NCBI GenBank assembly: GCA_002762785.1
Contig: PCXY01000006.1
Location: 1-55,097 of the forward strand
Direction: 5' to 3'
Length of the DNA stretch: 55,097 bases
DNA from: Candidatus Woesearchaeota archaeon CG10_big_fil_rev_8_21_14_0_10_45_16
Lineage (GTDB): Archaea; Nanobdellota; Nanobdellia; Woesearchaeales; GW2011-AR9
Part shown: positions 2,692 to 20,949 of the stretch, piece after piece
Layout of the letters: each line of letters begins with the position of its first letter
How positions within the stretch are numbered: the stretch's first letter is position 1
Position numbers and translations under genes: made by a program
Notes under the pieces: generated by a model
What the model was told of the DNA's origin: nothing
The model's database searches: none
What the model saw: only the letters and a program-made list of their open reading frames with translations

Positions 2692-2751
2692 CCCTTTCGC
2701 AAATATGAGAAAAAACATATACTGTATATGCTACTTTTGGTATTCTTCTGC

Positions 2752-2846: not shown

Positions 2847-2895
2847 AGGGGCTCCGGAGAGGGGGTGAGGGTGGTAGAATCTCGTTGGAGCCCCT
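2847..2895. other. Long-stem hairpin in a gene-free stretch, possible ncRNA or relic element
   Basis: AGGGGCTCC (2847-2855) is the exact reverse complement of GGAGCCCCT (2887-2895), giving a 9-bp GC-rich stem around a 31-nt purine-rich loop. A second smaller inverted pair, TTGGG...CCCAA, follows near 2900-2921 and encloses a T5 run. It is much more GC-rich than the AT-rich flanks. No tRNA, SRP or RNase P consensus is recognisable. The rest of 2642-3020 shows nothing further. Confidence 0.4.
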
Positions 2896-3020
2896 ATGAT
2901 TGGGCACCTCTTTTTCCCAACAACGGTAAAACCTTACTTGTATATAAATGTTACGTTTTTGTATACTGGTCATTAGAAATGCACCTTAATTCCCTTTTAA
3001 AGCAACTAAGGGGCTTAAAA

Positions 3021-4904
3021 CTAATCAAAAAAAGCGTCAAGATATTTACCATACTCACTAGAAACGATCAATCCTTCGCGAGGAAAACAAGTAAAATAGT
3101 TTCTCCAGGCAAAGCGTTCGTCCAGGTAGATAACTGCCCCTCGATCTTTCTCAGAACGGATGCATCTGCCAGCTGACTGCAAACATTTGTTGATGGCCGG
3201 ATAGGTATAGCCGTAATCCCAGCCTTTTGAGAACTTATGGTCGTAATACGCGATCATCTGCTTGGTCTGTAAGTCCGGTTTAGCCAGGGGCAGACCGATG
3301 ATGACCACTCCGTTCAATAAGTCACCCGGAAAATCGACGCCTTCCGCAAAATTGGCGCCAGTCACGCCTAATAAGACTGCGCCTTTGTCTTTCTTAGCTT
3401 TGAACTGCTGTAAAAATTCTTCTTTCTCTTCTTTAGTCATACCGGATTTCTCCCATAACAGGTCTTTGGCAACAGTTATATGAGCGCTGACATTATCCCG
3501 GAAATAATAAGACGGAAAGAATAAAGCGACATTACCCGGAACTTTCGCTGCGATCTCGCTGCAGATCTGAGCTATCCTCTTGTACATGGCATCGCCGCGG
3601 ACGGTAAATTTGGTGCTGGTCTCCGGGACGATCAGGGAAAGCTTGTTCTCTGCCGGGAACGGTGAAGCATATTCTTTCTCGATTCCTTTGCTGATGCCTA
3701 ATAGATCTTTATACATGAACGTCGGTTTGAGAGTGCCGCTCATCAAGACAGCCGCATGGACTTTCTCAAAGACCTGCTTGGAGACGATACTGGGATCAAG
3801 GCAGGAATGCCGCAGCACGATCATCGGACCGGTGCTTCCCTGCCGTTCCATGATGATCCGGGCATAGCCTTCATCTTCACCCAGCCAGGCGTCCAGGAAG
3901 GCAGAAATTCCGCCGAGGAACGAACGCCGTTGTTTCTTACGTACTTCGTCAGCAGCGATCTCCAGCTCATTGATCAGCTCGTCATAATCAGTACGTTTCT
4001 TGATAGCGTTGACGAACACTTCTTTAGTTACCAGTTTCTCTTTATCATTATCAGTAAACACCGCCAGGTCAAGAAGGACCGAGTTGATATCCTGCAGCCA
4101 GGAGACCAATCCTTTATAGCCGAATTTCTGGGCTTCCGATACGGCATTGCGGAGCATCACCGTTGTCAGGGAACTGGTAAGCATGTCCGCTATCCTCCCT
4201 GGAAGATTGTGAGCTTCATCCACGATCAGGATGACGTCTTCCAGCTGCAGTTCCAGCTTGGCAAATAATGTTGACTGCACGTGAGGATTGAACAAGTAAT
4301 AATAATCGCCGATGATCACCGGCGCATCTTTCGCTAACGCTAAGGAAACCTCATAACTGCACATCTTCTTTTCCTTGCTCATCTCCATCAGCTCTTCATT
4401 ATGCAAAGCTCCCCGTTTCTTGATCTCAGAGATAAGATATTTAGCTTCAGCGGTCAATGATGATTTGGTCTTGACATTGTTGAAGAATTCACACTCGCCT
4501 TTCTCGACGATGGTCTTGCAGTATTCCATGAAATCGCCGCTGCGTAATCCCGATACTTCCTGACTGCACATCCAGCGTTTGCCGATAAGATCGACGCAAG
4601 GTATCTTGGTTCCCGTCTTCTGGCCGATAAGTTTCAAGGTATTGACCGCGATCTGATGCTGCGTGTGTCTGTTTGTCAGGAAGAAGACGCGTTTGTTCTT
4701 CGCCTGCGCTTCTTTGATGGCGGCAGCAAGGGCGCTGGCTGTCTTTCCCAGTCCAGTAGGAGCATGAGCCAGCAGTACCTGGCCTTTGTCAAACACTTCC
4801 TCGATATCGGCGACCAGCTCTTTCTGGCCTTCACGGATCTTCTCATGTGGAAAAAGAGCAAGAAGTTCTGTCGAGACCATGATATTATGAGAAAATGACT
4901 GCAT
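3021..4904 (-). CDS. XPD/Rad3-like Fe-S superfamily 2 DNA helicase
   Basis: 627-aa ATP-dependent 5'-3' DNA helicase of the XPD/DinG group, expected in repair. Visible motifs: Walker A APTGLGKT (48-55), DEAH box VDEAH (228-232), and motif VI QSAGRCIRS near the C-terminus. Between motifs I and II are Cys103, 113, 129 and 138, then MCSYE with Cys182, which matches the XPD pattern in which the last Fe-S ligand precedes a Y-E/F pair and is followed by VIIGDYYYLFNP. Four of these five Cys probably hold a 4Fe-4S cluster. The length is typical of archaeal XPD. An alternative start at Met9 (position 4880) is possible. A TATA-like TTTATATAAA sits at 4948-4957. Confidence 0.9.
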   Translation of the reverse strand: MQSFSHNIMVSTELLALFPHEKIREGQKELVADIEEVFDKGQVLLAHAPTGLGKTASALAAAIKEAQAKNKRVFFLTNRHTQHQIAVNTLKLIGQKTGTKIPCVDLIGKRWMCSQEVSGLRSGDFMEYCKTIVEKGECEFFNNVKTKSSLTAEAKYLISEIKKRGALHNEELMEMSKEKKMCSYEVSLALAKDAPVIIGDYYYLFNPHVQSTLFAKLELQLEDVILIVDEAHNLPGRIADMLTSSLTTVMLRNAVSEAQKFGYKGLVSWLQDINSVLLDLAVFTDNDKEKLVTKEVFVNAIKKRTDYDELINELEIAADEVRKKQRRSFLGGISAFLDAWLGEDEGYARIIMERQGSTGPMIVLRHSCLDPSIVSKQVFEKVHAAVLMSGTLKPTFMYKDLLGISKGIEKEYASPFPAENKLSLIVPETSTKFTVRGDAMYKRIAQICSEIAAKVPGNVALFFPSYYFRDNVSAHITVAKDLLWEKSGMTKEEKEEFLQQFKAKKDKGAVLLGVTGANFAEGVDFPGDLLNGVVIIGLPLAKPDLQTKQMIAYYDHKFSKGWDYGYTYPAINKCLQSAGRCIRSEKDRGAVIYLDERFAWRNYFTCFPREGLIVSSEYGKYLDAFFD

Positions 4905-4994
4905 TATAAAACTTTGTTTTTAAAGCAGAAAGATTGTTGCCGAAACGTTTATATAAACTGGATTTTGTGAAACAACTATTCCAATGAGTAAATG

Positions 4995-5002
4995 TTTAAA
5001 TA
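4995..5002 (+). promoter_or_regulatory. TATA box for the winged-helix gene
   Basis: TTTAAATA about 31 bp before the GTG at 5033. The divergent helicase gene has its own TATA-like sequence at 4948-4957, so the 128-bp gap holds two back-to-back promoters. Confidence 0.5.
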
Positions 5003-5032
5003 CAACTATTTGAAACACATTTTTGGAGAGGT

Positions 5033-5332
5033 GTGGATAACAACGGGGGTGTGAATTTGGGGAAGAACAATAAACAGATTTTCGACGTTTTTTTCCGTGA
5101 AAAACCAGCCATGATGCTGGTGGAACTGAAAAATGCCAGCTCGAACGTGTATGCGTCAGTCTTGGCAAAACAGATAGATTGCACGTATTCGCACGTAGTA
5201 AAGATCCTGCAGGAGATGCAGAAAGCGGAATTGATACATTTCAAAAAAGAGGGGCGCTTGAAACTTTTGGAACTTACTAAGAAAGGGACCGAGATCGCCT
5301 CTAATATTGAAAGCATCAGGACTAAACTTTAG
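5033..5332 (+). CDS. Small winged-helix transcriptional regulator
   Basis: 99 aa with the layout of a MarR/ArsR-size winged helix: KNNKQIFDVFF helix, then VYASVLAKQIDCTYSHVVKILQEMQKAELI as the helix-turn-helix with recognition helix, then FKKEGRLKLLELTKKG as the wing. It should bind DNA as a dimer; the target is unknown. The GTG at 5033 follows a GGAGAGG purine run very closely, and later GTG or TTG codons (5051, 5057) are also possible starts. It is divergent from the XPD-like helicase and may regulate it, which is inference from position alone. Confidence 0.75.
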   Translation: MDNNGGVNLGKNNKQIFDVFFREKPAMMLVELKNASSNVYASVLAKQIDCTYSHVVKILQEMQKAELIHFKKEGRLKLLELTKKGTEIASNIESIRTKL

Positions 5333-5353
5333 TCCTTTTTTTTCTTTTTTTTT
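5318..5353 (+). terminator. Hairpin plus T-tract terminator
   Basis: AGGACTAAA-C-TTTAGTCCT (5318-5336) is a perfect 9-bp inverted repeat overlapping the last codons and stop of the regulator gene. It is followed by a nearly uninterrupted T tract to 5353. The arrangement looks like a bacterial intrinsic terminator, whereas archaeal termination usually needs only the T tract. The remaining 200 bp to the uS15 gene holds nothing else I can identify. Confidence 0.7.
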
Positions 5354-5552
5354 GGTAAACTTGTTTATTTTACTATCTCACTTTGGAAGCACAGAGTGGT
5401 CTTGGTATATTCTCAGATGGTTACTGCTGTATCTTTTACCGTCTGTAAAATATTTTTATTAGATTCATAAGTCAGAACTACAGATAGAATCATTAGAACT
5501 GGCAAATTTTTATTCAATCACAAAAAAAATAGAAAATAAAAAACAAGCAACT

Positions 5553-6005
5553 TTATTCTACATACATCTTTAGCTTGCTCATGTCAAGCTGCCAATCTTC
5601 AGGAAGTTTCTTGGTCTTCTTGTAATATTTGACCAGCCTGCGGATCTTGGAACTGGTCAAGATCTGACCTCTGCCAGCAGAAGTGTCCTGCTTGTTCTTC
5701 TCCAGATGCTGCCTGACCGCAATCAGTTTCCTGATAAGAGCCAAAATATCTTCCGGCAGTTCTGTCTGCAGCTTGTTTTCCTTGACGATATCAGTGATCC
5801 GTTTTTCAGTGACGGTCTTGACATCATGGATGCCGTACCTGTCCCGTAAGATCATCCCGATCTCACTGGTGGTCTTTCCTGCTTTCGCATATTTGACCAC
5901 TAATTTCTCAACTTCTGCTCCTTTGTAGGGAGCCCAGGCCGGAACTTTTGCAGCTGGTTTCTTGCTGCCGCTCTTGCCTCTTGCGCGTGAATGCATGCGT
6001 GCCAT
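5553..6005 (-). CDS. rps15: Small ribosomal subunit protein uS15 (archaeal S15)
   Basis: 150 aa, the usual archaeal/eukaryal S15 length. It begins MARMHSRARGKSGSKKP, the typical N-terminal extension, and its C-terminal half carries the S15 core (LIRKLIAVRQHLEKNKQD...ILTSSKIRRLVKYYKK). It binds the central-domain three-way junction of 16S rRNA early in 30S assembly. It is a single-gene transcript: a T/A-rich region follows, and a structured leader of about 95 nt precedes it (6031-6092), with a TATA-like TTTTTAAAGG near 6121-6130. Leader-mediated autoregulation is plausible, as known for bacterial S15, but not demonstrated. Confidence 0.95.
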   Translation of the reverse strand: MARMHSRARGKSGSKKPAAKVPAWAPYKGAEVEKLVVKYAKAGKTTSEIGMILRDRYGIHDVKTVTEKRITDIVKENKLQTELPEDILALIRKLIAVRQHLEKNKQDTSAGRGQILTSSKIRRLVKYYKKTKKLPEDWQLDMSKLKMYVE

Positions 6006-9174: not shown

Positions 9175-9954
9175 CTATTCCTTCTGCGCCAGCTTGGTGA
9201 AGTATTCCACAAAGTGAGGAGCTTCTACCCAAACAGCTGAATCGTAGCTTTTATGAACTTTCATATCGTCGGTCAAGAATAGCAAGATCTCTTTCTTGTC
9301 GACTGCACAGAATCGAGCATTGTCAGCGCTTTTACCGGTGACGACCTTGCCCAATTTGGAGAGCAAAGCGACGGATTCTTTTGAAGTTCCAGGTGGAACG
9401 GAAAAGGTCACATCGACGCCGGTCTTGGCAGCGCGTTTGAAATAGTTAGCAAGAAGTTCATATTTTCGTCCTGCTCCTTCTTTGGAAGTCTTGATCAAGA
9501 TCTCTTTCTTGGCACCTTTTATCATGGAAACCAGATGCTCGTAGACCTTATCACGGCCTCTGAAAGCGCCTGATCTGTCAGTTGGATCGACCAATTTGAT
9601 GCCTTCAGTATGAAGAGTGTTCAATTCGCCGAGAACTTCACTGTCTTTAAGGTTGGATAAGACTGTGTTTCGTTGGTCAGCTTCTTCAACGACCCTTTTC
9701 TTGACACGTTCGATAACCTCAGAAGGGGGAACTGCCAGATATTTGATCGGTTTGCCGACTTTAACTATGATAAAGCCTTTTTTCTCCAGGGATTCCAGTA
9801 CATCATAAGCCCGGGAACGAGGAACGTTAGATATGTCAGATAATTCACCTGCGGTGGAGACGCCTCTGCTTAGAAGAGCGATCCAGAGCTTGCTCTCGTA
9901 TGAGTTAAGACCGAAGTCTTTGAGCTTGTTTAAAAAGTCTTTTTGGACGATCAT
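9175..9954 (-). CDS. TrmB-like transcriptional regulator
   Basis: 259 aa from the chosen start. The N-terminal winged helix (LKDFGLNSYESKLWIALLSRG, then AGELSDISNVPRSRAYDVLESLEKKGFI) is the TrmB signature, followed by a coiled-coil-like helix (VIERVKKRVVEEADQ) and a C-terminal effector-type domain. The family senses sugars or other ligands and represses or activates metabolic genes. I chose the ATG at 9954 because GGAGGG lies 9 nt upstream; an in-frame start at 9990 precedes that site. The target is unknown. A 57-bp spacer with a TATA-like patch separates it from the 122-aa membrane gene upstream. Confidence 0.85.
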   Translation of the reverse strand: MIVQKDFLNKLKDFGLNSYESKLWIALLSRGVSTAGELSDISNVPRSRAYDVLESLEKKGFIIVKVGKPIKYLAVPPSEVIERVKKRVVEEADQRNTVLSNLKDSEVLGELNTLHTEGIKLVDPTDRSGAFRGRDKVYEHLVSMIKGAKKEILIKTSKEGAGRKYELLANYFKRAAKTGVDVTFSVPPGTSKESVALLSKLGKVVTGKSADNARFCAVDKKEILLFLTDDMKVHKSYDSAVWVEAPHFVEYFTKLAQKE

Positions 9955-10048
9955 TATTATTTTCCCTCCCTGGTGTCTAAACATCTTCACCTAAACACGT
10001 AGGGTAGGAAGCTAGAATGATGGTTTCTTTATAAATCTTTCGTGGTAG

Positions 10049-10417
10049 TTAGTACTTGTTAGTGGTTATTAAATGGCTTCCCGAAAGTTTTTCGTAAACG
10101 GCTTTATAGACTAGCCCATATCCCATCACGGCCCAAGCCATGTCTGCAGACATCTCAACAAAACCTTCCGCATTTACGACTCCCCATACGCCTCCAGCTC
10201 CGAAACTAACATAATACCCAATCTTCCGCCGTAACTGACATTCTTTGGCAGCAGGAGCGAGATACTCCTCCAAAGCGGTCCCCTCAACACTAGCGGCCAC
10301 CTTCCTGAAATCACGATAATCCTGCCAGGCGTAATATGCTCCTAACGTTACACCAAGAAGGCTGGCTCCGGCGATTCGCAACCAGACCGCCCCGGCCATA
10401 ATCTCATCCAGAGTCAT
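10049..10417 (-). CDS. Small membrane protein, last gene of the accessory island
   Basis: 122 aa, unrecognised. Hydrophobic stretches at about 10-28, 66-83 and 92-108 suggest two or three TMs, with a charged loop (WQDYRDFRKVAASVEG) between the first and second. The start overlaps the end of the AAA+ ATPase gene by 14 bp, so the two are translationally coupled. It may anchor the ATPase or protease of the island at the membrane, which is inference from gene order. Confidence 0.65.
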   Translation of the reverse strand: MTLDEIMAGAVWLRIAGASLLGVTLGAYYAWQDYRDFRKVAASVEGTALEEYLAPAAKECQLRRKIGYYVSFGAGGVWGVVNAEGFVEMSADMAWAVMGYGLVYKAVYEKLSGSHLITTNKY

Positions 10418-11483
10418 TAGAAAAACCGATCCTCCTTTGCTTTGAAAACGAACCTGATGCTGTAAGATAACGCTGCTGGCAGCGCTGGTTGACAGCTGCC
10501 ATGATATCGTCTGTCCCTAGGTAGGCGCTGGCGCTCAGTTCATCATTTTCGATAAAATCCTTGATCTTGTTTCTGGCAGCGATCGCCAGGGCCTCGTGGA
10601 CATCAGCGCCGGTAAAACCCTGCTGGTGCATGGTAGCAGCTATCGATCGGTAATCCAACTCTTGGTAGATCCCATGCGCTTCACCACCAAGTCTCTGTTT
10701 CTGCCTTCGTTCCTGAAGAGAAACCTGCTTACGAAAGATCTGTTCCAACCCTTTAAGATCAGGAGGAGGTATCTCCACCACATAACTGAAACGGCCGGCG
10801 CGCAGCAGAGCTTCATCGACCATCTCTATCTTATTTGTCGCCGCAACAAGGATTATCCCTTCTTTCTTTCCCGACGCGCCGTCCATGAAATCGTTCAAGG
10901 TGACGACAGCGCGGTCCATCACGCCATGGCTGTGATATCCCCTCTTTGTGAGGAGCTGTTCAGCCTCATCCAAGAACACTAACACTTTTCTTCCGGTTTT
11001 TTTATATGCCTCAAAACTTTTGTCAAGTATTATCCGTAGAGTCTTCTCAGTCTCGCCAACATATTTGTCTATGACATCCGTAAGTCTTAGATTGACAAAA
11101 AATGTTTCCAGTTCGGTAGCTAAAGCTTTGGCGATCATCGTCTTGCCAGTCCCCGGAGGTCCATACATGAACAGACTTTCAGGCGGATTGATCACATAAT
11201 AATCGTAAAGCGTAGGATGAGCAAGGCCGTACCTGAATTCATGCAGCTTGTCGATGACCGCATCCAGGCCGCCCACATCAGCCAACCTAACCTGGTTTTC
11301 TTCCTCGGCCGGAATCGTTACCTGCAATGAAGTGGCCTCTTCTCTTTCTTTGTACTGCTTTAGCTGTTTCTCCAGCAGAGAATTTTTCCTTTGAAGAGCG
11401 TTGATCAGTTCAGCTTGCTTATTGATCACTTTCTTTTTAGCATCTTCTTCAGTTATATCTTCTAAGATCGTCTCTACCATCAC
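10404..11483 (-). CDS. AAA+ ATPase with N-terminal coiled coil
   Basis: 359 aa. A coiled coil (about 12-50) is followed by the AAA module: Walker A GPPGTGKT (108-115), pore-loop-like DKYVGETEKT (139-148), Walker B VLVFLDEAE (167-175), sensor-1 AATN (214-217), arginine-finger region LRAGRF (227-232), then a helical lid. This is the classical AAA clade of PAN, Cdc48 and ARC, which unfold or remodel proteins. The OB domain of PAN is absent, and no C-terminal HbYX proteasome motif is seen (it ends GFSNDSG), so it is not an ordinary proteasome activator. It overlaps the protease lipoprotein gene by 4 bp, suggesting a shared task. Confidence 0.85.
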   Translation of the reverse strand: MMVETILEDITEEDAKKKVINKQAELINALQRKNSLLEKQLKQYKEREEATSLQVTIPAEEENQVRLADVGGLDAVIDKLHEFRYGLAHPTLYDYYVINPPESLFMYGPPGTGKTMIAKALATELETFFVNLRLTDVIDKYVGETEKTLRIILDKSFEAYKKTGRKVLVFLDEAEQLLTKRGYHSHGVMDRAVVTLNDFMDGASGKKEGIILVAATNKIEMVDEALLRAGRFSYVVEIPPPDLKGLEQIFRKQVSLQERRQKQRLGGEAHGIYQELDYRSIAATMHQQGFTGADVHEALAIAARNKIKDFIENDELSASAYLGTDDIMAAVNQRCQQRYLTASGSFSKQRRIGFSNDSG

Positions 11484-12400
11484 TTCCCCTCCGGATACAA
11501 AAAGGATCCAATTTTTTCTGTTGGAGCGTAGAACAACATGTCCATATGCCGGGTGAAGATCGTTTTCTCACCATCAGGGATGCGTCTTAAGCTGTTGGTG
11601 ATGCCGATCAGATGAAACTCGCCTCCCAAGTATGCGATCACTTGACCGCCGCTCATCCCGGGTTCGATATAACAGAAAGCTCGATCATGATTTTCATCCT
11701 GATAAGACGAAGAAAGGCAGGCTCCAAAATAAAGCTTCAAGCCGTTGGCAAAACCTAGAACATAGATGTTAGTCGGAGCGACATCTTCTTTTTTTCCTAA
11801 AGATAATCCTTCCAGATAAGGGATCTGCGTCATGGTGGAAAGGACCGCTGCGTCAAAGTCAGGAGATTCTCTCTCAAGGACCACCTCAATATCATCTGAG
11901 GGGTCATCATCCGCAAGATTGTCCACCAACTCGTACTTTATGCCGGTCCTTGGAAAGACAGCGATACGACGCTCCAATAGATCTTCCAGGGCTTTGTTCC
12001 CAGCAAGACCTTGTCTTAATTTTTCTATCTCTTTCAATAGTTCTTCTGGAAGGCTTTCACCGTTCTCTTTCCAGATGTAAATTGCATCTGGCTTATCCGT
12101 AACATGTTTAGCAGTAGCAAGGTAAGTTTTCCCTTCTTTTTTTTGGTATGCAAAAGCAGTGCCGCCATGGACAGTGTCGGGAAAACCGTTATAAGAAGCA
12201 GTCACCCGCAAGCAATATGTTCCAGCGATCTGCTCACGCATAGCTTCCTGTAAAGAACGAAGCTCATCCCCATCTTTGATGTCGATCTGTCTCGACTGCT
12301 GCTCTGACTTTTCAACAGACCGCTGCGGCGTATGGATGGTGCAGTTGCTGGCCGTCGCCAAGAACAGCGTTGTCACTAGCTTAGCTAAAGTTTTCTTCAT
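11480..12400 (-). CDS. Lipoprotein with trypsin-like serine protease domain
   Basis: 306 aa. The signal peptide ends in a lipobox-like ATASNC with Cys20. The chymotrypsin-fold catalytic triad is visible: His99 in ATAKHV, Asp183 in DFDAAVL, and Ser250 in PGMSGGQV (GxSGG). There is an inserted helical/acidic region between His and Asp (about 112-175). It is probably anchored outside the membrane as an HtrA/V8-like endopeptidase; no PDZ domain is present. The 4-bp overlap with the AAA+ ATPase gene is notable because the lipoprotein signal puts the protease outside while the ATPase must be inside. Confidence 0.85.
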   Translation of the reverse strand: MKKTLAKLVTTLFLATASNCTIHTPQRSVEKSEQQSRQIDIKDGDELRSLQEAMREQIAGTYCLRVTASYNGFPDTVHGGTAFAYQKKEGKTYLATAKHVTDKPDAIYIWKENGESLPEELLKEIEKLRQGLAGNKALEDLLERRIAVFPRTGIKYELVDNLADDDPSDDIEVVLERESPDFDAAVLSTMTQIPYLEGLSLGKKEDVAPTNIYVLGFANGLKLYFGACLSSSYQDENHDRAFCYIEPGMSGGQVIAYLGGEFHLIGITNSLRRIPDGEKTIFTRHMDMLFYAPTEKIGSFLYPEGK

Positions 12401-12462
12401 AGTTCCACCTCATGTTAGGAACAACCGCCTTTGCGATCAGGGCAGGTTATTCTTATGAACGT

Positions 12463-12497
12463 TCATCTGTCATCTGTCATCCGTCATCTGTCATCTG
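12463..12497. repeat. Five tandem copies of a 7-bp unit
   Basis: TCATCTG repeated five times, the third copy reading TCATCCG. It starts in the 90-bp gap before the protease lipoprotein and runs over the stop codon of the 82-aa gene (12491). A heptamer tract is unstable by slippage: changes in copy number would alter promoter spacing for the protease gene or the reading frame at the 82-aa gene's end. Confidence 0.85.
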
Positions 12498-12739
12498 TTG
12501 AGCGGCTCGTAAGTACAGACGGGAAGATAGATCTCCTGACCATCTATCATCCGCGGCGCCTCGATACCATGGCGATAAGGACATTCCTGGCTGGCAATAG
12601 CCGTGCATTCTCGATGTTTTCCAACTTCGATCTGATATAATCCATCTCTTACAAGACAACGCTGCCAAGAAAAAACTGGAAACAAGTCCTCTGCTATCTG
12701 CAGTGCTTCTTCCAAAGCTATTCGTTCATCAAAAACCAT
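12491..12739 (-). CDS. Small Cys-containing protein, island member
   Basis: 82 aa, unrecognised. An N-terminal helix (DERIALEEALQIAEDLF) is followed by a Cys-rich part with RCLVR, HREC, ASQEC and VCTYEPLNR. The RCLVR and YEPxNxR words also occur in the 92-aa protein at 13495-13773, so the two may be diverged paralogues with a zinc site. It overlaps the upstream lipoprotein gene by 11 bp. A heptamer tandem repeat supplies its stop codon. Confidence 0.6.
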   Translation of the reverse strand: MVFDERIALEEALQIAEDLFPVFSWQRCLVRDGLYQIEVGKHRECTAIASQECPYRHGIEAPRMIDGQEIYLPVCTYEPLNR

Positions 12740-13298
12740 AGCCGAACCCCACTAGATGGATTATCTCATTTGGTGTGATCTTAGGGCTGTAAACCCCCGT
12801 AAGGGAAGAGACGTATCCCAGCAATGACGCCTGCAAGAACGGACTTCCTTCAGCGCTTACTGAAGAAAGCAACGAACCTGAACCTCCACCTTCCACACTG
12901 AACTTTGAATCTGCCAGGATCATGTCAATGTTGCAGCCAGCGCCAAGACGGAAGGATAGGCCGGCAGATGAGGATGAAGCATCTAGGATTTCACGTTCCA
13001 GGAAGGGGGAGAACAAGAGACGTTTAAAGTGGCGCCGGCTTTCTACTGAAATCTCTCCGACCAGAGAGACGTCCGTAAGATCAATATCATCGGTCTGAGT
13101 TCTATCCTGCCATTCACCATACAATACATCCAGACCAAAATAATGCGGATCTTCAGCAGCTTTCTCCTGAGTGATCCTGACACCATCCATCGGCTGCGAT
13201 GTTTCTCCCCTTGCATACATCAACGCGGTGCTGCCAGAACAGCCTGCAGTTAGCGACAGAATCGCCGATGCTGCTGTTCTCGCCAAAAAACGGTTCAT
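12729..13298 (-). CDS. Predicted lipoprotein of unknown function, island member
   Basis: 189 aa. The N-terminus MNRFLARTAASAILSLTAGC is a signal peptide with a lipobox (LTAGC, Cys20). The rest is Ser/Gly-rich and beta-prone, with a stretch (VEGGGSGSLLSSVSAEG) like a flexible linker and a C-terminal GFGYGF ending in aromatic Phe. In a Gram-negative bacterium that ending would hint at a beta-barrel; in an archaeon I draw no conclusion. It overlaps the 67-aa gene upstream by 4 bp (ATGA). Confidence 0.65.
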   Translation of the reverse strand: MNRFLARTAASAILSLTAGCSGSTALMYARGETSQPMDGVRITQEKAAEDPHYFGLDVLYGEWQDRTQTDDIDLTDVSLVGEISVESRRHFKRLLFSPFLEREILDASSSSAGLSFRLGAGCNIDMILADSKFSVEGGGSGSLLSSVSAEGSPFLQASLLGYVSSLTGVYSPKITPNEIIHLVGFGYGF

Positions 13299-13498
13299 AA
13301 TCGATACCTCTGTCGCATCGTGAAGACGAGGTACTTATCACCGCTCAGATGCATCATCCCTTTATCTTCTTCCAACAGCACTTCAGTAAGCTGCCGATAA
13401 CTGAGAGGGACCATGACGTCTTCTTCCAAGTCCGAATTATGCACCCGCCAGGGTATCACTCCACCATTATCCTGAACCCGTTCCTGTAAAGTTTTCAT
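13295..13498 (-). CDS. Small hypothetical protein, island member
   Basis: 67 aa from MKTLQERVQDNGGVIPW. A longer in-frame reading from 13645 exists, but the ATG at 13498 overlaps the preceding stop as ATGA and follows AGGTG, the usual coupling in this island. The protein is soluble, alpha/beta, with no Cys and no motif I recognise (YRQLTEVLLEED helix, LVFTMRQRYRL end). Confidence 0.55.
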   Translation of the reverse strand: MKTLQERVQDNGGVIPWRVHNSDLEEDVMVPLSYRQLTEVLLEEDKGMMHLSGDKYLVFTMRQRYRL

Positions 13499-13773
13499 GC
13501 TGCACCTCCTTTGAATCTTTGATATATCTCTCTGAGTTCTCTGACCCCGTACTGTTCGCGGCCGCAAGCCCAATAAGGGACAAGCATCGAAAAGAGGTCT
13601 TCTCCTTTCATCACATCCACCAGCCGATGTTCCAAGACCGGACATTCAAAATCACGACGCTGGTTGGTCGGTTCGTAAAGCCGGCAGTAAGGTTTCCCTT
13701 CCTGACTCAGGCCCTGATGCTGTTTCCGGACTAAGCATCTGGCCGTCTCTTCTCGGTTTTTATCTGAATCCAT
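13495..13773 (-). CDS. Small Cys-containing protein, island member
   Basis: 92 aa, unrecognised. Four Cys (RCLVR, KPYCRLYEP, FECPVLE, WACGRE) could bind one zinc ion. Its RCLVR and YEPTNQR words resemble those of the 82-aa protein three genes downstream. It starts inside the end of the 42-aa gene (14-bp overlap) and ends with an ATGA overlap to the 67-aa gene. Confidence 0.6.
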   Translation of the reverse strand: MDSDKNREETARCLVRKQHQGLSQEGKPYCRLYEPTNQRRDFECPVLEHRLVDVMKGEDLFSMLVPYWACGREQYGVRELREIYQRFKGGAA

Positions 13774-13888
13774 GCATATACCCCTCGTGGATCTGTTTCA
13801 CCTTATCTTCCTCCGAAAGGTCTGGGTCGTGAAGCAGACCATGGATCCGCCGCAAGGCCCGGTTGTAGTATGTCTCAGCTGGAACCAT
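13760..13888 (-). CDS. Very small protein, island member
   Basis: 42 aa starting MVPAETYYNRALRRIHGLLHD, mostly helical and amphipathic. The ATG at 13888 lies inside the end of the HExxH gene (14-bp overlap), and the stop lies within the start of the 92-aa gene. Tight overlap on both sides with an otherwise unbroken operon is the main support. Function unknown. Confidence 0.5.
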   Translation of the reverse strand: MVPAETYYNRALRRIHGLLHDPDLSEEDKVKQIHEGYMHGFR

Positions 13889-14327
13889 TGTTATCCTCCA
13901 CCCTATCCTTATCCCTATCCTTGTTCTTGTCCCTATCCTTGTCCCTGTCCCTATTCCTACCCTCTCTCCCACTCCGATCCCTATTCCCAGTCCATTCTCT
14001 CTGTATGACTGAAGCGAACTGTTGCCGTAGATAATCACGAAGAAGCGGGAACTGCAGATTGTATAGAGCAGATTGTTCTGTCTCCTCTTCCGACAACAGG
14101 CTTTCTTCATCATAATGATGGACAATCTCATGCAGGATCGTGATCAAGAAATCTTCCTCATCAACGATACGATCGGGGTTATACAAGATCCTTTGCTCTT
14201 CAACAAGGTATTCGCCAGCAATATCAAGAGAACGACGACAATAGGGCTTTGTAACACCAAGAGCATCCACTAGATGCTCAAGATCAAGATGCATGATCCT
14301 GTTTATCTGTGGTTCACTGATACTCAT
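13875..14327 (-). CDS. HExxH metallopeptidase-like protein with low-complexity tail
   Basis: 150 aa. Residues 60-73 contain FLITILHEIVHHYDE, an HExxH zinc site (His66, Glu67, His70) within a helix, as in ImmA/IrrE-size or SprT-like peptidases. An acidic third ligand could lie in the following ESLLSEEETEQSALYN helix. Residues 112-145 are Arg/Asp/Lys repeats (NRDRSG, DRDKDRDKN) encoded by a degenerate hexamer tract. The start overlaps the phosphoesterase stop (ATGA). A soluble cytosolic protease activity is inferred from the motif only. Confidence 0.7.
   Translation of the reverse strand: MSISEPQINRIMHLDLEHLVDALGVTKPYCRRSLDIAGEYLVEEQRILYNPDRIVDEEDFLITILHEIVHHYDEESLLSEEETEQSALYNLQFPLLRDYLRQQFASVIQREWTGNRDRSGREGRNRDRDKDRDKNKDRDKDRVEDNNGSS
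13901..13990. repeat. Degenerate hexanucleotide tract (CCTATC/CTTGTC type)
   Basis: About 90 bp of pyrimidine-rich 6-bp units with variants CCTATC, CTTGTC, CCTGTC and CCTATT on the plus strand. It encodes the Arg/Asp/Lys-rich tail of the HExxH protein. Slippage in multiples of six would keep the reading frame and only change tail length. Confidence 0.8.
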
Positions 14328-16648
14328 GCGGCATCCCCCAAACCTTGTTCCATTTTCTGTTCTATCTTTCTCTGCAGATTTTTCATGCCAAGATCCCTAA
14401 GATAACCGGCAGGCAGGGCCTCTTCATAGAAATGCCCCGGCTGCGGCATGATCATCTTGTGCCCGCAGGCAGTCCTAGGGACGGAAGAAGCATAGCTCTT
14501 TTCGGTCGGACTCACACCCTGCAGGGTGCCGAGACGGTAAGCCACCCGGAAAGTGTTCGGTCCAGAACTGTCAAGCTTGACCCAGTTTTCATGAGTATGG
14601 CCGGCTAAAGCCAGATCAGCGTCTGAATTACGGGCAGCGCCTACCAAACCAGAAAAACCGGAACCGTGCGGGTCGTGCTGCACGATAAGATTTACCGGTC
14701 CAAATAGAGCATCACTGTCGATGCTTTTTCCATAATCAGGGATCTGGATTATCCTAGCGCTGCTGTAGCCCCCGACAAAGACGCGCGACTCAGGTTTTTG
14801 GGGGTCATGGTAATAGTCAGATTTTCCGACCTCATAAACTTCTATCCCTCGACCTTTAAGACGCTGGACGAAGAAATCGGTCTCTCTCAACCCAAGGTCG
14901 CGAAGGACACCGTCAGCATGGTTGCCGGTAACAGATACATGCGCGCACTGAAGACGGCTTCTATCTAAAGACTGATCTAAAAACGAGCTGTAATAATCGG
15001 CAACCCAATCTAGGATTACCTGCATGCTCTCGACACTGCCGCCCATGGCATCGTTAGTCTTTTGGAGAATTAGCTTTAACACTTCTTCTTTATTCTCCGG
15101 TTTCCAGTTGCTCAACAATTCTATATTCTCAGCCAATACTTCCTGAGGGCTGCGTTTGAAATGATAACGGTGGTTCCAGGATCGAGAATTAGCCTCGGCA
15201 GTATCACCGCCGCTGATAAAACCACTATGATGGGCTGGACGGCCTCGAAAAGTTCCGGCAGGACTTTTGAATACCTCAATCAAGCCATCACGGACCAAAG
15301 GATTTTCTTCCGGCGATCCGATATGTTCATCAGAAGAAGCGACAATAACATGATAATCCTCTAGCTGCTGCAAAGCTGAGCCATCGACAAAGTTCTGATA
15401 TTGGATCCATTCCGTTCCGATGATGCCGTCTTCATTCTTGCTGATGACCGTAATTCCTGAAACGCTGCCCCGGTTAAAGCGGTCTATCACTGAATGTCTT
15501 CTGGTGCCAAGCGGTTTCCCGGCCGACATCCGTGTTGCTTCTTCTCCCCTTACAAATCTACTTATTTTTTCCTGATCTTCAAATGGCAGAGCCGTCACCA
15601 AAGTTATCGTTTTTTCGCCGATCTTAGGATCATAGGAAGATTGATCTTTGAAATTGGTTTCAGCTGGACAATCATGCAGTTTCTGGAGCTGTTTATAGCC
15701 GACACCATGGTGGCCGCTTTCCAGGATCACATCAATATCTTCAAGACTTTTCGTCTTTCCATGGACCGATGCCAGCAGGCGGGCCGGGGTTGATCTCATG
15801 GCAGCCCAGGTTGAGTGGCGGCTGTGGGCATAATCTATCACTAATCCGTTGAAGTCAAGAACTTTTTGGTTCGTAACCAGTTGCACTCCAGCCCTATCAC
15901 AGACCGCTTGATACCGGCCATATAACTCAGCTACAAATTGTGCTGTAAAGTACTGGTGAGCTGGACGAACTTTCTTTTCCCTGAATAAGTTCTTTTCAGA
16001 AAATTTTTCGGTGATATCATGGTCGATATTTTCCATCTTTTGCTGTCTGTCGTTCATCCTGCGCTTAAGGCTGCCGCGACGGTTAGGTGAACCTTTGCTC
16101 CTGGTGAGACTCTCCCATTCCTTTCTATAATCACCATACTCCTTCCTAAACTGATCTCTCTTCTCTTTCAACCCGCTGATCTCATCATCGATCTCAAGAC
16201 GTTTCCGCAGCAAAAGTTCATTAAGCATCGCCGAGACAGTAAATTGCAGGTCGTCGGAATCGACAGAAAGGACGACTTTTTCCAGATGCGGCGCTTCTGT
16301 TTTAATCTCGGTCAGTCTTCTTTCAAGAATGGCTAACTGTCTTTCTAGCATTGATGAATACTGCTCACGGTTAGGAACCCGATCGGTTTCCTCCAAACAC
16401 TCCTCTTTTGATTTGTTCCAATAAGTCAAGTCGTCATTAAGATACTCTGGGCGGTCAAGCCTAGTTAAAGTGCCGTCAACGATAAGACCAGTAGCTTCTT
16501 TATCCTGGGCGATAAATCGTAAAACGTTCTGGTATGCTTCTGGATTAAAATAGCAGGTGTCGTAACCAACTTTACTAAAGATATAGACTCTGCTTTGGAC
16601 GGCTTGCTGTTCCAGCCGCCCCTCTAGGTCAAGTTGTTTTTCATCCAC
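14324..16648 (-). CDS. Large calcineurin-like metallophosphoesterase, head of the island
   Basis: 774 aa. The C-terminal half has all five motifs of the calcineurin-like/Mre11 fold in order: DxH at Asp440-His442 (SSDEHIG), GD at 481-482 (SGGDTAE), GNHAD at 575-579, His658 (VQHDPHG) and GHTH at 683-686. Two metal ions and hydrolysis of a phosphoester are expected; the substrate (nucleic acid, nucleotide or protein) is open. The first 430 residues include a charged coiled coil (about 145-215) and echoes of the same fold (LIVDGTLTRLD at 55-65, ESGHHG at 310-315), so a decayed N-terminal copy is possible. It starts a block of overlapping genes running to 10049. Confidence 0.85.
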   Translation of the reverse strand: MDEKQLDLEGRLEQQAVQSRVYIFSKVGYDTCYFNPEAYQNVLRFIAQDKEATGLIVDGTLTRLDRPEYLNDDLTYWNKSKEECLEETDRVPNREQYSSMLERQLAILERRLTEIKTEAPHLEKVVLSVDSDDLQFTVSAMLNELLLRKRLEIDDEISGLKEKRDQFRKEYGDYRKEWESLTRSKGSPNRRGSLKRRMNDRQQKMENIDHDITEKFSEKNLFREKKVRPAHQYFTAQFVAELYGRYQAVCDRAGVQLVTNQKVLDFNGLVIDYAHSRHSTWAAMRSTPARLLASVHGKTKSLEDIDVILESGHHGVGYKQLQKLHDCPAETNFKDQSSYDPKIGEKTITLVTALPFEDQEKISRFVRGEEATRMSAGKPLGTRRHSVIDRFNRGSVSGITVISKNEDGIIGTEWIQYQNFVDGSALQQLEDYHVIVASSDEHIGSPEENPLVRDGLIEVFKSPAGTFRGRPAHHSGFISGGDTAEANSRSWNHRYHFKRSPQEVLAENIELLSNWKPENKEEVLKLILQKTNDAMGGSVESMQVILDWVADYYSSFLDQSLDRSRLQCAHVSVTGNHADGVLRDLGLRETDFFVQRLKGRGIEVYEVGKSDYYHDPQKPESRVFVGGYSSARIIQIPDYGKSIDSDALFGPVNLIVQHDPHGSGFSGLVGAARNSDADLALAGHTHENWVKLDSSGPNTFRVAYRLGTLQGVSPTEKSYASSVPRTACGHKMIMPQPGHFYEEALPAGYLRDLGMKNLQRKIEQKMEQGLGDAA

Positions 16649-16845
16649 TTTTTCCCCCGGATAGCCAGCACCAGACCATCCTTACAAGATACTAAAAAAA
16701 CAGATCAGGCATGCTGCCTTCATGACAGAATTCTAACAGTTTACGGCCTACATAATTGTTTTGTATTAATATTATGACGTGATTAAATGATACTAATCGA
16801 TAAAAATACTCCTTAGATCTCCAGAACATATATTCGCAATACCTA

Positions 16846-16872
16846 TTATAATAATTGATTAAATTATTATAA
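16846..16872. promoter_or_regulatory. Perfect 11-bp inverted repeat upstream of the AbrB-PhoU gene
   Basis: TTATAATAATT-GATTA-AATTATTATAA, two perfect 11-bp arms with a 5-bp spacer, centred 57 bp before the ATG at 16916 and 13 bp before its TATA box. It suits a dimeric regulator, possibly the AbrB-type product itself. The 267-bp gap (16649-16915) also holds the divergent island promoter and shows nothing else. Confidence 0.6.
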
Positions 16873-16885
16873 CTATTACAGAATG

Positions 16886-16893
16886 TTTAAATA
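16886..16893 (+). promoter_or_regulatory. TATA box for the AbrB-PhoU gene
   Basis: TTTAAATA 23 bp before the ATG at 16916, with no Shine-Dalgarno sequence between, indicating a leaderless transcript. Confidence 0.6.
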
Positions 16894-16915
16894 ATCGGTT
16901 CTCATATCTTATGGA

Positions 16916-17878
16916 ATGAAAAGAAAGGTCGCCCAGATCGGGCCATCAACCTTGATGATCTCTCTGCCTACAGAATGGGTTAAGGCGCATAAGCTTCAGA
17001 AAGGAGATGAGTTGGATGTTTTTCCAGGACGGAACGAAATTACGTTTTCTCAGGGAGAACGGAAAGCGAAGACGAAAGAGATTACCCTTGACATCACCCC
17101 TTTTAACAAATACCTTCTTTCAAGATACTTAGAAGTGTTGTACTTCAGCAATTACTCGAAGATCATCCTGACTCATAAGAAAAACACGATGTATGATCAA
17201 AAGCATCAGGAAGAGATCAGCGTCAGGGCACTATTGAAGAAATTGAGCAACCGTTATATCGGCATGGAGATCGTCTCCCAAACCAGGAACATGACCGAGA
17301 TACGCTGCTTCCTGCTTGATAAAGAGAAAGATCTAAGGACCATCGAGAAGCGCATCTATTTTTTATTCAAAGGTATCATGGAAGAATTTCTGCAGAGCCT
17401 TGACCATAACCATAAAGAATTTTATCAGAACATCTACGAACATCATGATACGATCACCAAGTTCGTCACCTATTACCTTCGGGTGTTAGACCAATCCGAA
17501 AAAACGGAAGAGGAAAAAAAACAGCTCTATTCATTGTACCTTACCATAGACAAGATGATGGATAAGTTTCGGCATCTTAATCAGAGCATAGACCAATACG
17601 GCTGTACACCGACGACAAAGAACATGTTAAAAGATATCTTTGAGCTGGTGTATGAATTTTTCACAGCCTATCATAAAGGCAGGATAACAGCAGAACTCGT
17701 CGCAAAAAGATATGCTCTGATGAGAAAAAGCATAAGCTCAGATTATTCGCCGGAAGAGCTCCGAGTCGTCAATGAGATCAGGATCTTTCTCGATTCCATC
17801 AACGATTTTACCAGAGCAGTCATCCTTGAAGAACTAGTAAATAATGATTCTCAACGAATCCCACCTGTTTTTAAGTGA
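16916..17878 (+). CDS. AbrB/SpoVT-PhoU fusion regulator
   Basis: 320 aa. The N-terminus MKRKVAQIGPSTLMISLPTEWVKAHKLQKGDELDV is a swapped-hairpin AbrB-type DNA-binding domain (1-45). The remainder is all-helical with PhoU-like bundles (about 95-190 and 195-310). Archaeal proteins of this build are usually annotated as phosphate uptake regulators, but no phosphate transporter is nearby. Leaderless gene with a strong inverted repeat upstream (16846-16872), so autoregulation is likely. It converges on the kinase gene with an 8-bp overlap of the 3' ends. Confidence 0.85.
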   Translation: MKRKVAQIGPSTLMISLPTEWVKAHKLQKGDELDVFPGRNEITFSQGERKAKTKEITLDITPFNKYLLSRYLEVLYFSNYSKIILTHKKNTMYDQKHQEEISVRALLKKLSNRYIGMEIVSQTRNMTEIRCFLLDKEKDLRTIEKRIYFLFKGIMEEFLQSLDHNHKEFYQNIYEHHDTITKFVTYYLRVLDQSEKTEEEKKQLYSLYLTIDKMMDKFRHLNQSIDQYGCTPTTKNMLKDIFELVYEFFTAYHKGRITAELVAKRYALMRKSISSDYSPEELRVVNEIRIFLDSINDFTRAVILEELVNNDSQRIPPVFK

Positions 17879-19043
17879 TGATCTCATATATAGGAAGAGC
17901 GGTCAGCCTAGCCAGCTCATCTCCAACAGGGCCGTAATCATCTGGACGCGAAGTCATCAGCTGCCAGGTAAAAGCAGCCAATAAAGCGTCAGGTACGGTG
18001 TCATATACTTTCTCACGATATCTTCTTCTCTTTTTAGGATCTTCAAATGCCTCTCGACGCCGTATAACTAGATCTCCAGCAGTTATAGAACGAGCATCTC
18101 CAGATTCACTGAATAGATGCGAACCGGTGGCCATGACATAACTGACCTGGCCTAAGGAAAAAAGATCATTTGCTCGATGTATTTCTGCCACGTCATTAGA
18201 TCCGCCATATCTCCGATTATCACGGATCAGTGCTTGAGGTTCTTCAGTAGCGATCCCAAAATCGATAAGGATGGCTTTCTTATTATCTACTATAACATTA
18301 GCTGGCCGCACATCACGGTGGTACAAGATTCCAGATTCACGCATCTCCATGAGACCATAAAAGATACCTTGAGTATAACGGAGAGTACGACGCGGGCTTA
18401 GACTACTATCTCTTAATACTTGTTCAAGGGTGCGGCCTTGGATATATTCCAATTCGATAACATCGACCTGACCGCGACCAAGACCCTTTTTCATCCTTGC
18501 CATGTGTTGGAATCTTCTTCCACGTTTTCTTTCCTGCGCCCTCATCTTTTTTAAGACTCCATATTCGTTCTCTAAGTTACGTCCTATCTTGTAAGCTGTC
18601 TTACCAGTATCATCAAGTACGACAAAAGCGTGTTTGCCAGAACCTAAGAAAGCATGTTCATCAGGCCTCTCCCAAATCTCCCCTAACCGAGGGTCTTCAA
18701 ACATCGCTTTAAGAAGGTCTTCTTGTTCATTATAGGTGAGATGACCTGGAGTGATCCCAAGGTAATGTAAGCAAGAGATCTGGTAACCATGGAGACCTTC
18801 CGGCCAGGTTTCTGCTTCTTTCCTGCTGATACCGGCGCGCCATAGACACAACGCTTCAGCGATATCATATCGTGGAAAATAAGAGAGAAGACTTTCAGCA
18901 TCAAAATCGGAAAAGACAGATTGAAGGGTCTGAAGAGTCAGATCATCGATAGATTCTTCCAGAGAACCACCTGATTGCGTATCACCAGGCTCGGAGATTT
19001 CAAGCCTTAAAGTATCGCGAATTCCTCGCGGCTTTTCCCCCAT
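17871..19043 (-). CDS. Protein kinase-like protein (Ser/Thr kinase fold)
   Basis: 390 aa. The first 130 residues are a helical N-terminal region. The kinase core follows: HAFVVLDDTGKTAYKIG with the likely ATP-binding Lys (VAIK-like), ELEYIQGRTLEQVL (hinge), catalytic loop YHRDVRPANVIVDN and metal-binding DFGIA. All key residues (Lys, HRD, Asn, DFG) are present, so activity is expected. The glycine loop is weak (GSGKHAFV). Target unknown. The region 17.9-19.9 kb is visibly more AT-rich than the flanking island. Confidence 0.85.
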   Translation of the reverse strand: MGEKPRGIRDTLRLEISEPGDTQSGGSLEESIDDLTLQTLQSVFSDFDAESLLSYFPRYDIAEALCLWRAGISRKEAETWPEGLHGYQISCLHYLGITPGHLTYNEQEDLLKAMFEDPRLGEIWERPDEHAFLGSGKHAFVVLDDTGKTAYKIGRNLENEYGVLKKMRAQERKRGRRFQHMARMKKGLGRGQVDVIELEYIQGRTLEQVLRDSSLSPRRTLRYTQGIFYGLMEMRESGILYHRDVRPANVIVDNKKAILIDFGIATEEPQALIRDNRRYGGSNDVAEIHRANDLFSLGQVSYVMATGSHLFSESGDARSITAGDLVIRRREAFEDPKKRRRYREKVYDTVPDALLAAFTWQLMTSRPDDYGPVGDELARLTALPIYEIIT

Positions 19044-19111
19044 GGGCTAAAATATATGAAATATCTATAAAAACATTATGTAATAATATATTAAGATTGG
19101 GGCGGAAATTA

Positions 19112-19939
19112 TTATCTCTCTCTTACTGGCAGAAGTTGTAGGATAGAACGGAGAGAACCTACTTTGTGAAATGATCTGCGAGTCGACTTAATGTCAACTG
19201 CACTTTTAGTTAGACCGGATACTTTTCTATCAACTTGAACAGCCACCATACCCATCCTTAATGCTGGAACAACATCTTTGTGAAAAGAATCTCCGATATA
19301 CATAACTTGACTTCCTATCTTTTGCGTCTCATGTAAGATCCTCATAAACCCGCCTAAACTTGGTTTGGGATCTCGCGTGTCACCAGAACAGATGATAGGA
19401 TCAAAATAAGTTTCCTGGAGCCCAAGAGTATGAAGAACTTTCTGGACGGTTTCATAGACTTCCGTCGTCAAGATTCCGGTATTATATCCCCTCTGATGTA
19501 ATGATTCCACCACTTCCTGAAGCTGTTGATCAGGACGGAGAATAGCGGCGAAATCTATCTGGCTTAAAGCTTTAGCAAGAAAATTTTTACTTCTACCAAA
19601 ACGCTGTGAGAAGACGCGGCCGTTGGAGGTGAATCTTTCAACATCCGCTTTATAATCCGCTTTTAGGCGACCCGTAAATTCATGTTCAAGACAATCAAGA
19701 AGCGTTCCATTAGATACTCTTTGTCGATATTGTCTTCCTGCTTCATGTAAGAGATATTCTTCAGGTAGATTTGACGATTCGCTTAATCGTTTATACAGCC
19801 ATAACCTAAAGAAATCATGAGAATCGTAAACCGAACCGACCCTAGAACCATACCTGCTATCGCCATCATACATCGTACCATCAACATCAAAAAGTACGTG
19901 AGTGATATCACTTTCAACTAAAGGTCTTGCTTCTAGCAT
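19112..19939 (-). CDS. HAD-superfamily hydrolase
   Basis: 275 aa. Motif I DVDGTMYDGD (nucleophile Asp18 and acid/base Asp20), motif II ILTTE, motif III region DPKPSLGG with Lys, motif IV YIGDSFHKDV. The cap lies between motifs I and II (about 25-135), so this is the C1-cap type typical of phosphoglycolate phosphatases, pyrimidine 5'-nucleotidases and similar enzymes. Substrate not predictable. It is a separate transcription unit, with 68 bp to the kinase and 35 bp to the DUF357 gene. Confidence 0.85.
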   Translation of the reverse strand: MLEARPLVESDITHVLFDVDGTMYDGDSRYGSRVGSVYDSHDFFRLWLYKRLSESSNLPEEYLLHEAGRQYRQRVSNGTLLDCLEHEFTGRLKADYKADVERFTSNGRVFSQRFGRSKNFLAKALSQIDFAAILRPDQQLQEVVESLHQRGYNTGILTTEVYETVQKVLHTLGLQETYFDPIICSGDTRDPKPSLGGFMRILHETQKIGSQVMYIGDSFHKDVVPALRMGMVAVQVDRKVSGLTKSAVDIKSTRRSFHKVGSLRSILQLLPVRER

Positions 19940-19974
19940 CTTCTAGTTGCTAAAAGAACCTTTTTATAAAAATA

Positions 19975-20265
19975 TTACTCCTCATCCACTGTAAACAGCC
20001 TGGAATCTTTTACTTTGAACAGACCGATCCTGGCACCGGCATCCAGCCAGCCGTGAGCATAGTTCAAAGCTGCAAAAGCCAATACAGCATCTTCTTTTTT
20101 ATCTAGAAAATACTGTGCGTCTTTATAGTAACGTTCAGCCATATCAAAGAAATCTTCAGCTGCTTCTTTCTGTTCAGGATTAATCGCTCCTCTAGCCATC
20201 TCCAGAGCTTCTTTAGTGATAGCGAAGTATTTGTCCAATTTTTCCTTGGTGATGGTTGAGTTCAT
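19975..20265 (-). CDS. DUF357 family protein
   Basis: 96 aa, all-helical: KLDKYFAITKEALEMARGAI, EAAEDFFDMAERYYKDAQYFL, DAVLAFAALNYAHGWLDAGARIGLF. The pattern 'YYKDAxYFLxKxDxVxAFAALNYAHGWLDAG' is the archaeal DUF357 signature, an uncharacterised HEPN-like helical hairpin. It lies 33 bp after the methyltransferase gene. Confidence 0.85.
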   Translation of the reverse strand: MNSTITKEKLDKYFAITKEALEMARGAINPEQKEAAEDFFDMAERYYKDAQYFLDKKEDAVLAFAALNYAHGWLDAGARIGLFKVKDSRLFTVDEE

Positions 20266-20298: not shown

Positions 20299-20949
20299 CT
20301 ATGGAGCGATGATTTGAGCCACGTTATTAACATAAAGAACCGCTTGACGATAAAGACCTTTTGCCCCGTCGACAAGAGATTTAGGAACAAACCTCGACGT
20401 CCGTTTTTTATAACCAACATATTCTTGACCGAATCTTGCTTCCAACGCTCTTTCTTCCGTCAAAGCCGCTCCTACACCGGCGCAGATTGCGGCAATTCCA
20501 GTACTTATCGTCATCCAGTTTGGATTGAGCAGCGCCGCCCCGACATTGCCTGTAAAATAGGAGACGTACATCGGATGACGCAGCTGCCCATGGGCACCGT
20601 CTGTCACGAGGCCCTGTCGATTATCATTTCTTAAAGCACCGCCATTAAAGTTTTGTTTAAACCTCTGCTGAACTGCCGTTGCTGCAATAAGTCCGCCTGA
20701 TACCAGAAAAGTTCCAGCGTAAAATAGTCCAGGATTATCATAATAAGTCTGTTCGACACCCGGAGCGGCAAGAACCATAGTTGCATACTCTAAAGCTGCT
20801 AGTCTCACCATACTCCCGTTAAGACGATCTGAAAGGACATCTAAGCGTGAAGCTGCTTCTAGATTGATAATCTGATCTTCAACAGCAGTATCTATCGAAG
20901 CCGGTCTGTGAAGAGAGGTTTTACCCTTGCTTCTTCCTTTCTTTGCCAT
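20299..20949 (-). CDS. Membrane methyltransferase, isoprenylcysteine methyltransferase-like
   Basis: 216 aa with several hydrophobic helices. The SAM-binding signature of the ICMT/PEMT group is clear: HGQLRHPMYVSYFTGNVGAALL, then after the last TM EERALEARFGQEYVGYKKRTSRFVP. The enzyme methylates small hydrophobic or lipid-linked substrates at the membrane; the archaeal substrate is unknown. The first 55 residues (KKGRSKGKTSLHRP...) are basic and probably cytosolic. A TATA-like patch (TTTATAAAC-like) precedes the ATG by about 20 bp. Confidence 0.85.
   Translation of the reverse strand: MAKKGRSKGKTSLHRPASIDTAVEDQIINLEAASRLDVLSDRLNGSMVRLAALEYATMVLAAPGVEQTYYDNPGLFYAGTFLVSGGLIAATAVQQRFKQNFNGGALRNDNRQGLVTDGAHGQLRHPMYVSYFTGNVGAALLNPNWMTISTGIAAICAGVGAALTEERALEARFGQEYVGYKKRTSRFVPKSLVDGAKGLYRQAVLYVNNVAQIIAP

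Follow-up and report, generated by a model that had tools for sequence, protein, structure and literature searches.

What purpose would be served by an operon in which the genes for a large phosphoesterase, a small zincin-like protein and an ATPase are joined to one for a serine protease predicted to be exported from the cell? Such an operon lies on contig PCXY01000006.1 of Candidatus Woesearchaeota archaeon CG10_big_fil_rev_8_21_14_0_10_45_16, of which a stretch of 55,097 nucleotides (the window) was analyzed. It is a run of ten open reading frames (ORFs) on the minus strand, extending from 16648 to 10049, and comprises a calcineurin-like phosphoesterase, an HExxH protein, an AAA+ ATPase, a membrane protein, two lipoprotein-type proteins, of which the protease is probably one, and four small ORFs (42, 92, 67 and 82 aa). 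The answer that we tentatively favour is that Woesearchaeales and their tailed viruses have in common a mobile, recurrent module of enzymes, of which the operon is one chromosomal copy, and that the operon serves in conflict between virus and host, the simplest form of which would be the exclusion of competing viruses.

Distribution in Woesearchaeales

The survey covered 353 genomes of the order, most of which are metagenome assemblies. The large phosphoesterase was found in seven of these, the AAA clade in nine, and the protease clade, with strong score, in 17. Eight of the nine genomes with the ATPase also possess the protease clade (hypergeometric p 4e-11), as do six of the seven with the phosphoesterase (p 3e-8); in the seventh a weaker protease match adjoins the phosphoesterase gene. 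About 20 loci in several families combine an AAA+ ATPase with a calcineurin-like phosphoesterase and an exported protease of the trypsin-like kind. Many of these loci have as additional recurrent members a small zincin, a PD-(D/E)xK-like protein, a 67-aa protein family (s67), Cys proteins, large unknown proteins and a regulator. Hidden Markov model scans of background loci found two of the module families together in none of 13. The initial annotation had proposed searching relatives with such models for co-occurrence of the genes, and the homologues do indeed form a block and are not scattered singly. Since its genes recur together in other genomes, the operon is not a chance assembly.

The locus occurs in a form with a large phosphoesterase (G000, G001, G013, G014, G300, G304 and G305, with diverged versions in G298 and G249), in a form with a small one (G010, G018b, G026, G042, G047 and G060) and in a form with paired other phosphoesterases (G024, G041 and G250). 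Contig G018:C32 (L049) was counted as a duplicate, its module proteins being identical to those of G047, which is probably the result of cross-contamination of assemblies.

In the sister loci the ratio of nonsynonymous to synonymous substitution (dN/dS) is 0.03–0.18, which shows purifying selection and a module that is kept. That it also moves follows from its patchy distribution and by one ATPase branch which crosses families: in the AAA tree G300, which belongs to another family, groups with G010 (support 97/97), pointing to horizontal transfer. The large phosphoesterase is approximately 50% identical over families; a phosphoesterase tree had too few rows for family-level resolution.

Some loci have neighbours of a defence type, namely a helix-turn-helix (HTH) nucleotidyltransferase in G010 and G304 and a HEPN-like partner in G010. 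In G010 (L048, 10174–11977) the module is split in two by the HEPN-like and HTH-nucleotidyltransferase pair and by what may be a caspase-like protein; the nucleotidyltransferase recurs in G304 at 78% identity. The large-phosphoesterase cluster of G304 is preceded immediately upstream (L063, 3426–7792) by genes for an AAA protein of 808 aa and, after it, a divergent subunit of proteasome type (PF00227, E 5e-9), a pair that looks like an unusual accessory proteasome-like operon. A family of large unknown proteins (757–888 aa; L051 4887–7307, L053 5916–8234, L063 18716–21382 and L115 12246–14624), which recurs in loci of the module, has no Pfam match and possibly a methyltransferase-like C-terminal part. 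In L242 (G250) and L246 (G249), from another family, a phosphoesterase and a trypsin are paired with exported HExxH proteins of 460–490 aa and with lipoproteins.

Counterparts in tailed viruses

All four gene types, that is, phosphoesterase, exported trypsin, AAA ATPase and HExxH protein, adjoin one another in viral contig IMGVR_UViG_3300005613_000564 (L154/L211). Here the phosphoesterase gene (2375–3202) is followed by that of a trypsin exported by the twin-arginine (Tat) type of signal (3204–3995), an 80-aa gene, the AAA gene (4202–5191), the product of which ends in RIGF, and the HExxH gene (5188–5658), which overlaps the AAA gene by 4 bp. Downstream lie terminase, portal and, farther along, capsid genes. 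Three of the four adjoin in L159/L161, which possess an HExxH protein, a trypsin, an intein-containing phosphoesterase, terminase, portal and capsid, while L160 and L162 carry a phosphoesterase and an HExxH protein. Pfam and PHROGs confirm the trypsin, AAA, terminase, portal and capsid assignments on the viral contigs (L154, L159). The viral phosphoesterase gene at 4855–6669 of L159 is apparently split by the intein, which has homing-type motifs.

Several host proteins are related to viral ones in sequence. The small phosphoesterases of the sister loci match 60 IMG/VR loci with top identities of 50–60%, they match the phage DNA-repair exonuclease family phrog_7339 (E 1.5e-40), and in their tree three host lineages are interleaved with viral ones. 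The host AAA profile aligns with the viral AAA protein to the last residues (E 5e-21), and the host and viral proteins both have [LIVF]G[FL] at the end, after a basic stretch; a scan of the viruses for AAA proteins gave generic matches only. The protease profile matches the viral protease (E 2.6e-5). Viral contigs L160 and L152 have matches to the 99-aa Cys protein of G042 (E 3.6e-9) and to a protein of 103 aa from G010 (E 1.5e-9), respectively. Since assemblies of Woesearchaeales, G091 and G013 among them, also contain relatives of the terminase and portal genes, such viruses probably infect Woesearchaeales.

Enzymes of the operon

The 774-aa phosphoesterase (14324–16648, minus strand) possesses the ordered motifs of the calcineurin-like enzymes (DxH, GD, GNHxD, H and GHxH), and D440xH442, G481D482, G575NHxD579, H658 and G683HTH686 are invariant across seven homologues. 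All of these catalytic motifs sit in the C-terminal half; judging from motifs and predicted strands, a second copy that has degenerated may make up the N-terminal half. Unlike the large phosphoesterase of G298, which passes PF00149, the window protein has no Pfam match. Its structure model is of low confidence (predicted local distance difference test score, pLDDT, 62), and at that quality a Foldseek search gave no significant PDB match.

The 306-aa protease (11480–12400, minus strand) is trypsin/HtrA-like and probably a lipoprotein. The complete triad noted in the initial annotation is borne out, H99, D183 and S250 being invariant in 12 relatives. Its modelled fold is HtrA-like (mean pLDDT 70; match to HtrA1, E 1.9e-8), and the family profile matches HtrA1 at E 2.5e-19. 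Both fold and triad are therefore those of a trypsin-like (S1) protease of the HtrA type. No PDZ domain, as in the HtrA/Deg subfamily, was found in the protein, in which Trypsin_2 alone was matched (E 2.5e-5). The lipobox is atypical in having Asn before the Cys, that of most relatives being normal. Exported proteases, either lipoproteins or of Tat type, occur in most sister loci, with as many as four in tandem in G304.

The 359-aa AAA+ ATPase (10404–11483, minus strand; PF00004, E 4e-32) has an N-terminal coiled coil and a C-terminal RRIGF tail. It had been assigned to the PAN clade; the tree instead places it in a clade of its own, next to but apart from CDC48 and PAN (support 100/100). A tail of the LGF type, that is, a basic (K/R) stretch followed by [LIVF]G[FL], is present in 10 of 11 family members as against 2% of background proteins, the pattern having been chosen after it was seen and three of the 11 members being near-identical.

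Gene order and small proteins

The initial annotation had listed eleven genes on one strand with overlaps of 4–14 bp and a single 90-bp break before the protease gene. The strand and the spacing agree with our measurements, while the count is reduced to ten. From the phosphoesterase gene onward consecutive genes overlap by 4, 14, 14, 4, 4 and 11 bp, and after the 90-bp gap by 4 and 14 bp; purine-rich stretches resembling ribosome-binding sites precede most of the starts.

The gene for the 150-aa, small zincin-like HExxH protein (13875–14327, minus strand; HEIVH) overlaps the phosphoesterase gene by 4 bp at its start. Its repetitive RD/KD-rich tail is encoded by tandem repeats of a 12-bp type (13889–13968), a stretch which is open in two frames. 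HExxH proteins of like size occur in sister loci and viral contigs; the only links among them are motif, size and position, no significant sequence alignment being found between the window protein and those of sister loci or viruses.

Next are a 42-aa ORF (13760–13888), the least secure gene model, for which no homologues were found, and a 92-aa small Cys protein (13495–13773) with a weak match (E 0.006) to the 99-aa Cys protein of G042. The 67-aa protein (13295–13498) belongs to family s67 and has homologues in most sister loci, and the 189-aa protein (12729–13298), a lipoprotein predicted from its TAGC lipobox, yielded no homologues. The 82-aa Cys protein of family C82 (12491–12739) is homologous to the N-terminus of proteins of 258–274 aa in G024 (E 2e-9) and G041 (E 1e-7). 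A four-Cys pattern in loci and viruses is barely above shuffled sequences and was not used as a viral signature. The operon ends with a predicted 122-aa membrane protein (10049–10417), whose gene overlaps that of the ATPase; in G018b an unrelated small membrane protein is encoded at the other, upstream end of the AAA gene. All of these genes lie on the minus strand.

Insertion site

The operon is part of an insertion of about 10 kb in a core superoperon of this genome. The inserted stretch (9991–19974; 9,984 bp) separates TrmB (9175–9990) from prefoldin-beta (19975–20265). TrmB is found in nearly all genomes of the family, and in 10 of 12 relatives examined the two genes are 56–232 bp apart; of the exceptions one is without a detected prefoldin and the other is rearranged. 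In the relatives the pair belongs to a superoperon which also includes genes of the proteasome, the exosome and the ribosome. The site is empty in G013 and G014, both of which hold the module at other places. Other insertions near prefoldin-beta in relatives mark the superoperon as an insertion-prone site; in the window itself an extra gene close by (20299–20949) resembles a phospholipid or isoprenylcysteine methyltransferase. No convincing direct repeats were seen at the ends of the insertion. No terminase, portal, capsid or integrase gene is present among the ORFs of 9991–19974, and a search of G000 for viral terminases gave no match.

Besides the operon the insertion holds an AbrB/MazE-PhoU-type regulator (16916–17878, plus strand; MazE-type domain, E 2.6e-5), a kinase (17871–19043) and a HAD hydrolase (19112–19939). 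In the window, as in G014 and G060, the regulator gene lies divergently ahead of the operon, which it may control.

Possible function

The initial annotation had connected these genes with defence-like or envelope processes, a link which survives the analysis as one of inferred function. Mobility, sharing with viruses, conservation and the mixture of protease, ATPase and phosphoesterase together fit a conflict module best. We infer a mechanism along the following lines. On the outer face, the targets of the lipid-anchored protease would be receptor proteins or those of incoming virions; a cytoplasmic AAA ring would unfold target proteins and might pass them through its [LIVF]G[FL] tail to a peptidase, perhaps the operon's own small zincin; and the substrate of the phosphoesterase would be either nucleic acid or a nucleotide signal. 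Viruses could use the module against rivals or the host, and chromosomes could retain it as a defence. The IGF loop of ClpX docks on ClpP (PMC7112952), and the LGF-type tail, taken with the 4-bp overlap of the AAA and HExxH genes in L154, suggests an AAA protease with a separate zincin. Since the HExxH gene of the window is not adjacent to the AAA gene, this pairing is put forward as a proposal only. A more ambitious version, which we regard as doubtful, is that of a new class of DPANN conflict system working on both sides of the membrane, in which the surface protease blocks entry, the ATPase docks the zincin by its LGF tail, the phosphoesterase attacks nucleic acid, and the module is exchanged between tailed viruses and chromosomes.

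Several points weigh against a conflict module shared with viruses. After controls no known defence system in PADLOC fits. The large phosphoesterase of the window has no viral relative in IMG/VR, and no viral relatives were found for the window protease or the PD-(D/E)xK family; the bridge to viruses therefore runs through the sister loci, by way of phosphoesterase, ATPase and a weak protease similarity. The trypsin gene is present on only two independent viral contigs, the viral HExxH proteins were matched by motif and place without significant alignment, and Woesearchaeales are the presumed hosts. Furthermore, the ATPase and the exported protease would be on opposite sides of the membrane, so that joint action is not required.

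Possible, if somewhat unlikely, is a role at the envelope or in cell contact, where the surface protease and small lipoproteins would remodel the envelope or the zone of contact with a partner archaeon, the ATPase and phosphoesterase would form a signalling or quality-control arm, and the copies in viruses would help in taking over the host surface or in egress. The HtrA/Deg-like character of the protease by profile and model, the exported proteases of most sister loci, including the four of G304, the exported HExxH proteins and lipoproteins carried in addition by the f9 loci, and the symbiont-type lineage of the organism are all consistent with this. Presence in at most nine of the 353 genomes, horizontal spread and viral sharing would, however, be unusual for housekeeping control of the envelope, in which the phosphoesterase, PD-(D/E)xK protein and ATPase have no obvious role.

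We think it unlikely that the operon is a peptide-processing or competition system, in which zincin and trypsin would mature or release the small Cys proteins or lipoproteins, to be secreted as effectors that act on rival cells. It is true that two kinds of protease have several small, fast-changing Cys proteins beside them, and pairs of a zincin and a small variable protein are linked to MoxR-vWA conflict systems (PMC7159879), but the Cys proteins of the window have no recognizable secretion signal and the four-Cys pattern is, as described above, weakly enriched.

Very unlikely is a toxin-antitoxin of the IetAS kind, the ATPase restraining a toxic serine protease and the pair stabilizing the island. 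AAA-ATPase/subtilisin pairs of mycoplasmas are proven toxin-antitoxins (PMC8562856), and the window ATPase matches the PADLOC model of IetA at 8e-31; the cell's own CDC48 (1e-65) and PAN (4e-44) match it better, and so we consider the match unspecific. The protease, moreover, is trypsin-like and exported away from the ATPase. Equally improbable is a remnant of an integrated virus or satellite, in which accessory genes outlived the decay of a provirus, for although like gene types adjoin terminase in viral contigs and assemblies of Woesearchaeales contain relatives of the terminase and portal genes, the block lacks the viral genes sought, all ten frames are open, and the low dN/dS of the sister loci and the conserved large phosphoesterase speak against decay.

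DPANN archaea and their viruses have seen almost no experimental study, and the conflict systems known from them are few. A conserved, mobile module that chromosomes share with tailed viruses, in which it lies beside the terminase, provides concrete, testable genes for conflict between viruses and hosts in this large group, and possibly a new way for an AAA unfoldase to work with a peptidase that is separate from it.

Comparison with known systems

The claim that this combination of genes was undescribed is upheld by PADLOC, after the controls mentioned, and by a literature search for the combination, which found no paper. Matches of the Ser/Thr kinase to PD-T4-6 look like generic kinase similarity, and those of the proteases to LmuA and reverse transcriptase (RT)-protease models were taken as generic trypsin similarity.

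The module resembles IetAS in that the AAA gene directly adjoins a serine protease gene; the partner there is subtilisin-like (S8), whereas here it is trypsin/HtrA-like and exported, and several further enzymes are present. With the MoxR-vWA/VMAP ternary systems (Kaur et al. 2020, PMC7159879) it shares an AAA+ protein and a trypsin-like peptidase, in some cases with a zincin and small variable proteins, but the window ATPase belongs to PF00004 and matches bpMoxR only at E 0.004, its protease is exported, and no vWA domain was matched among the window proteins. HtrA/DegS have the same trypsin-like fold and triad on the membrane's outer face, as is predicted here; the window protease differs in having no PDZ domain and in belonging to a mobile operon instead of being a lone stress protease. 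Likeness to phrog_7339 is confined to the small phosphoesterases of sister loci, the window enzyme being a separate, two-part protein of 774 aa without such a match. In the late block of L154 a phosphoesterase, an exported trypsin-like protease, a RIGF-tailed ATPase and an HExxH protein are likewise neighbours; its phosphoesterase is small and phage-type, its protease bears a Tat signal, and TerL, portal and capsid follow, whereas the window has the large phosphoesterase and a lipobox.

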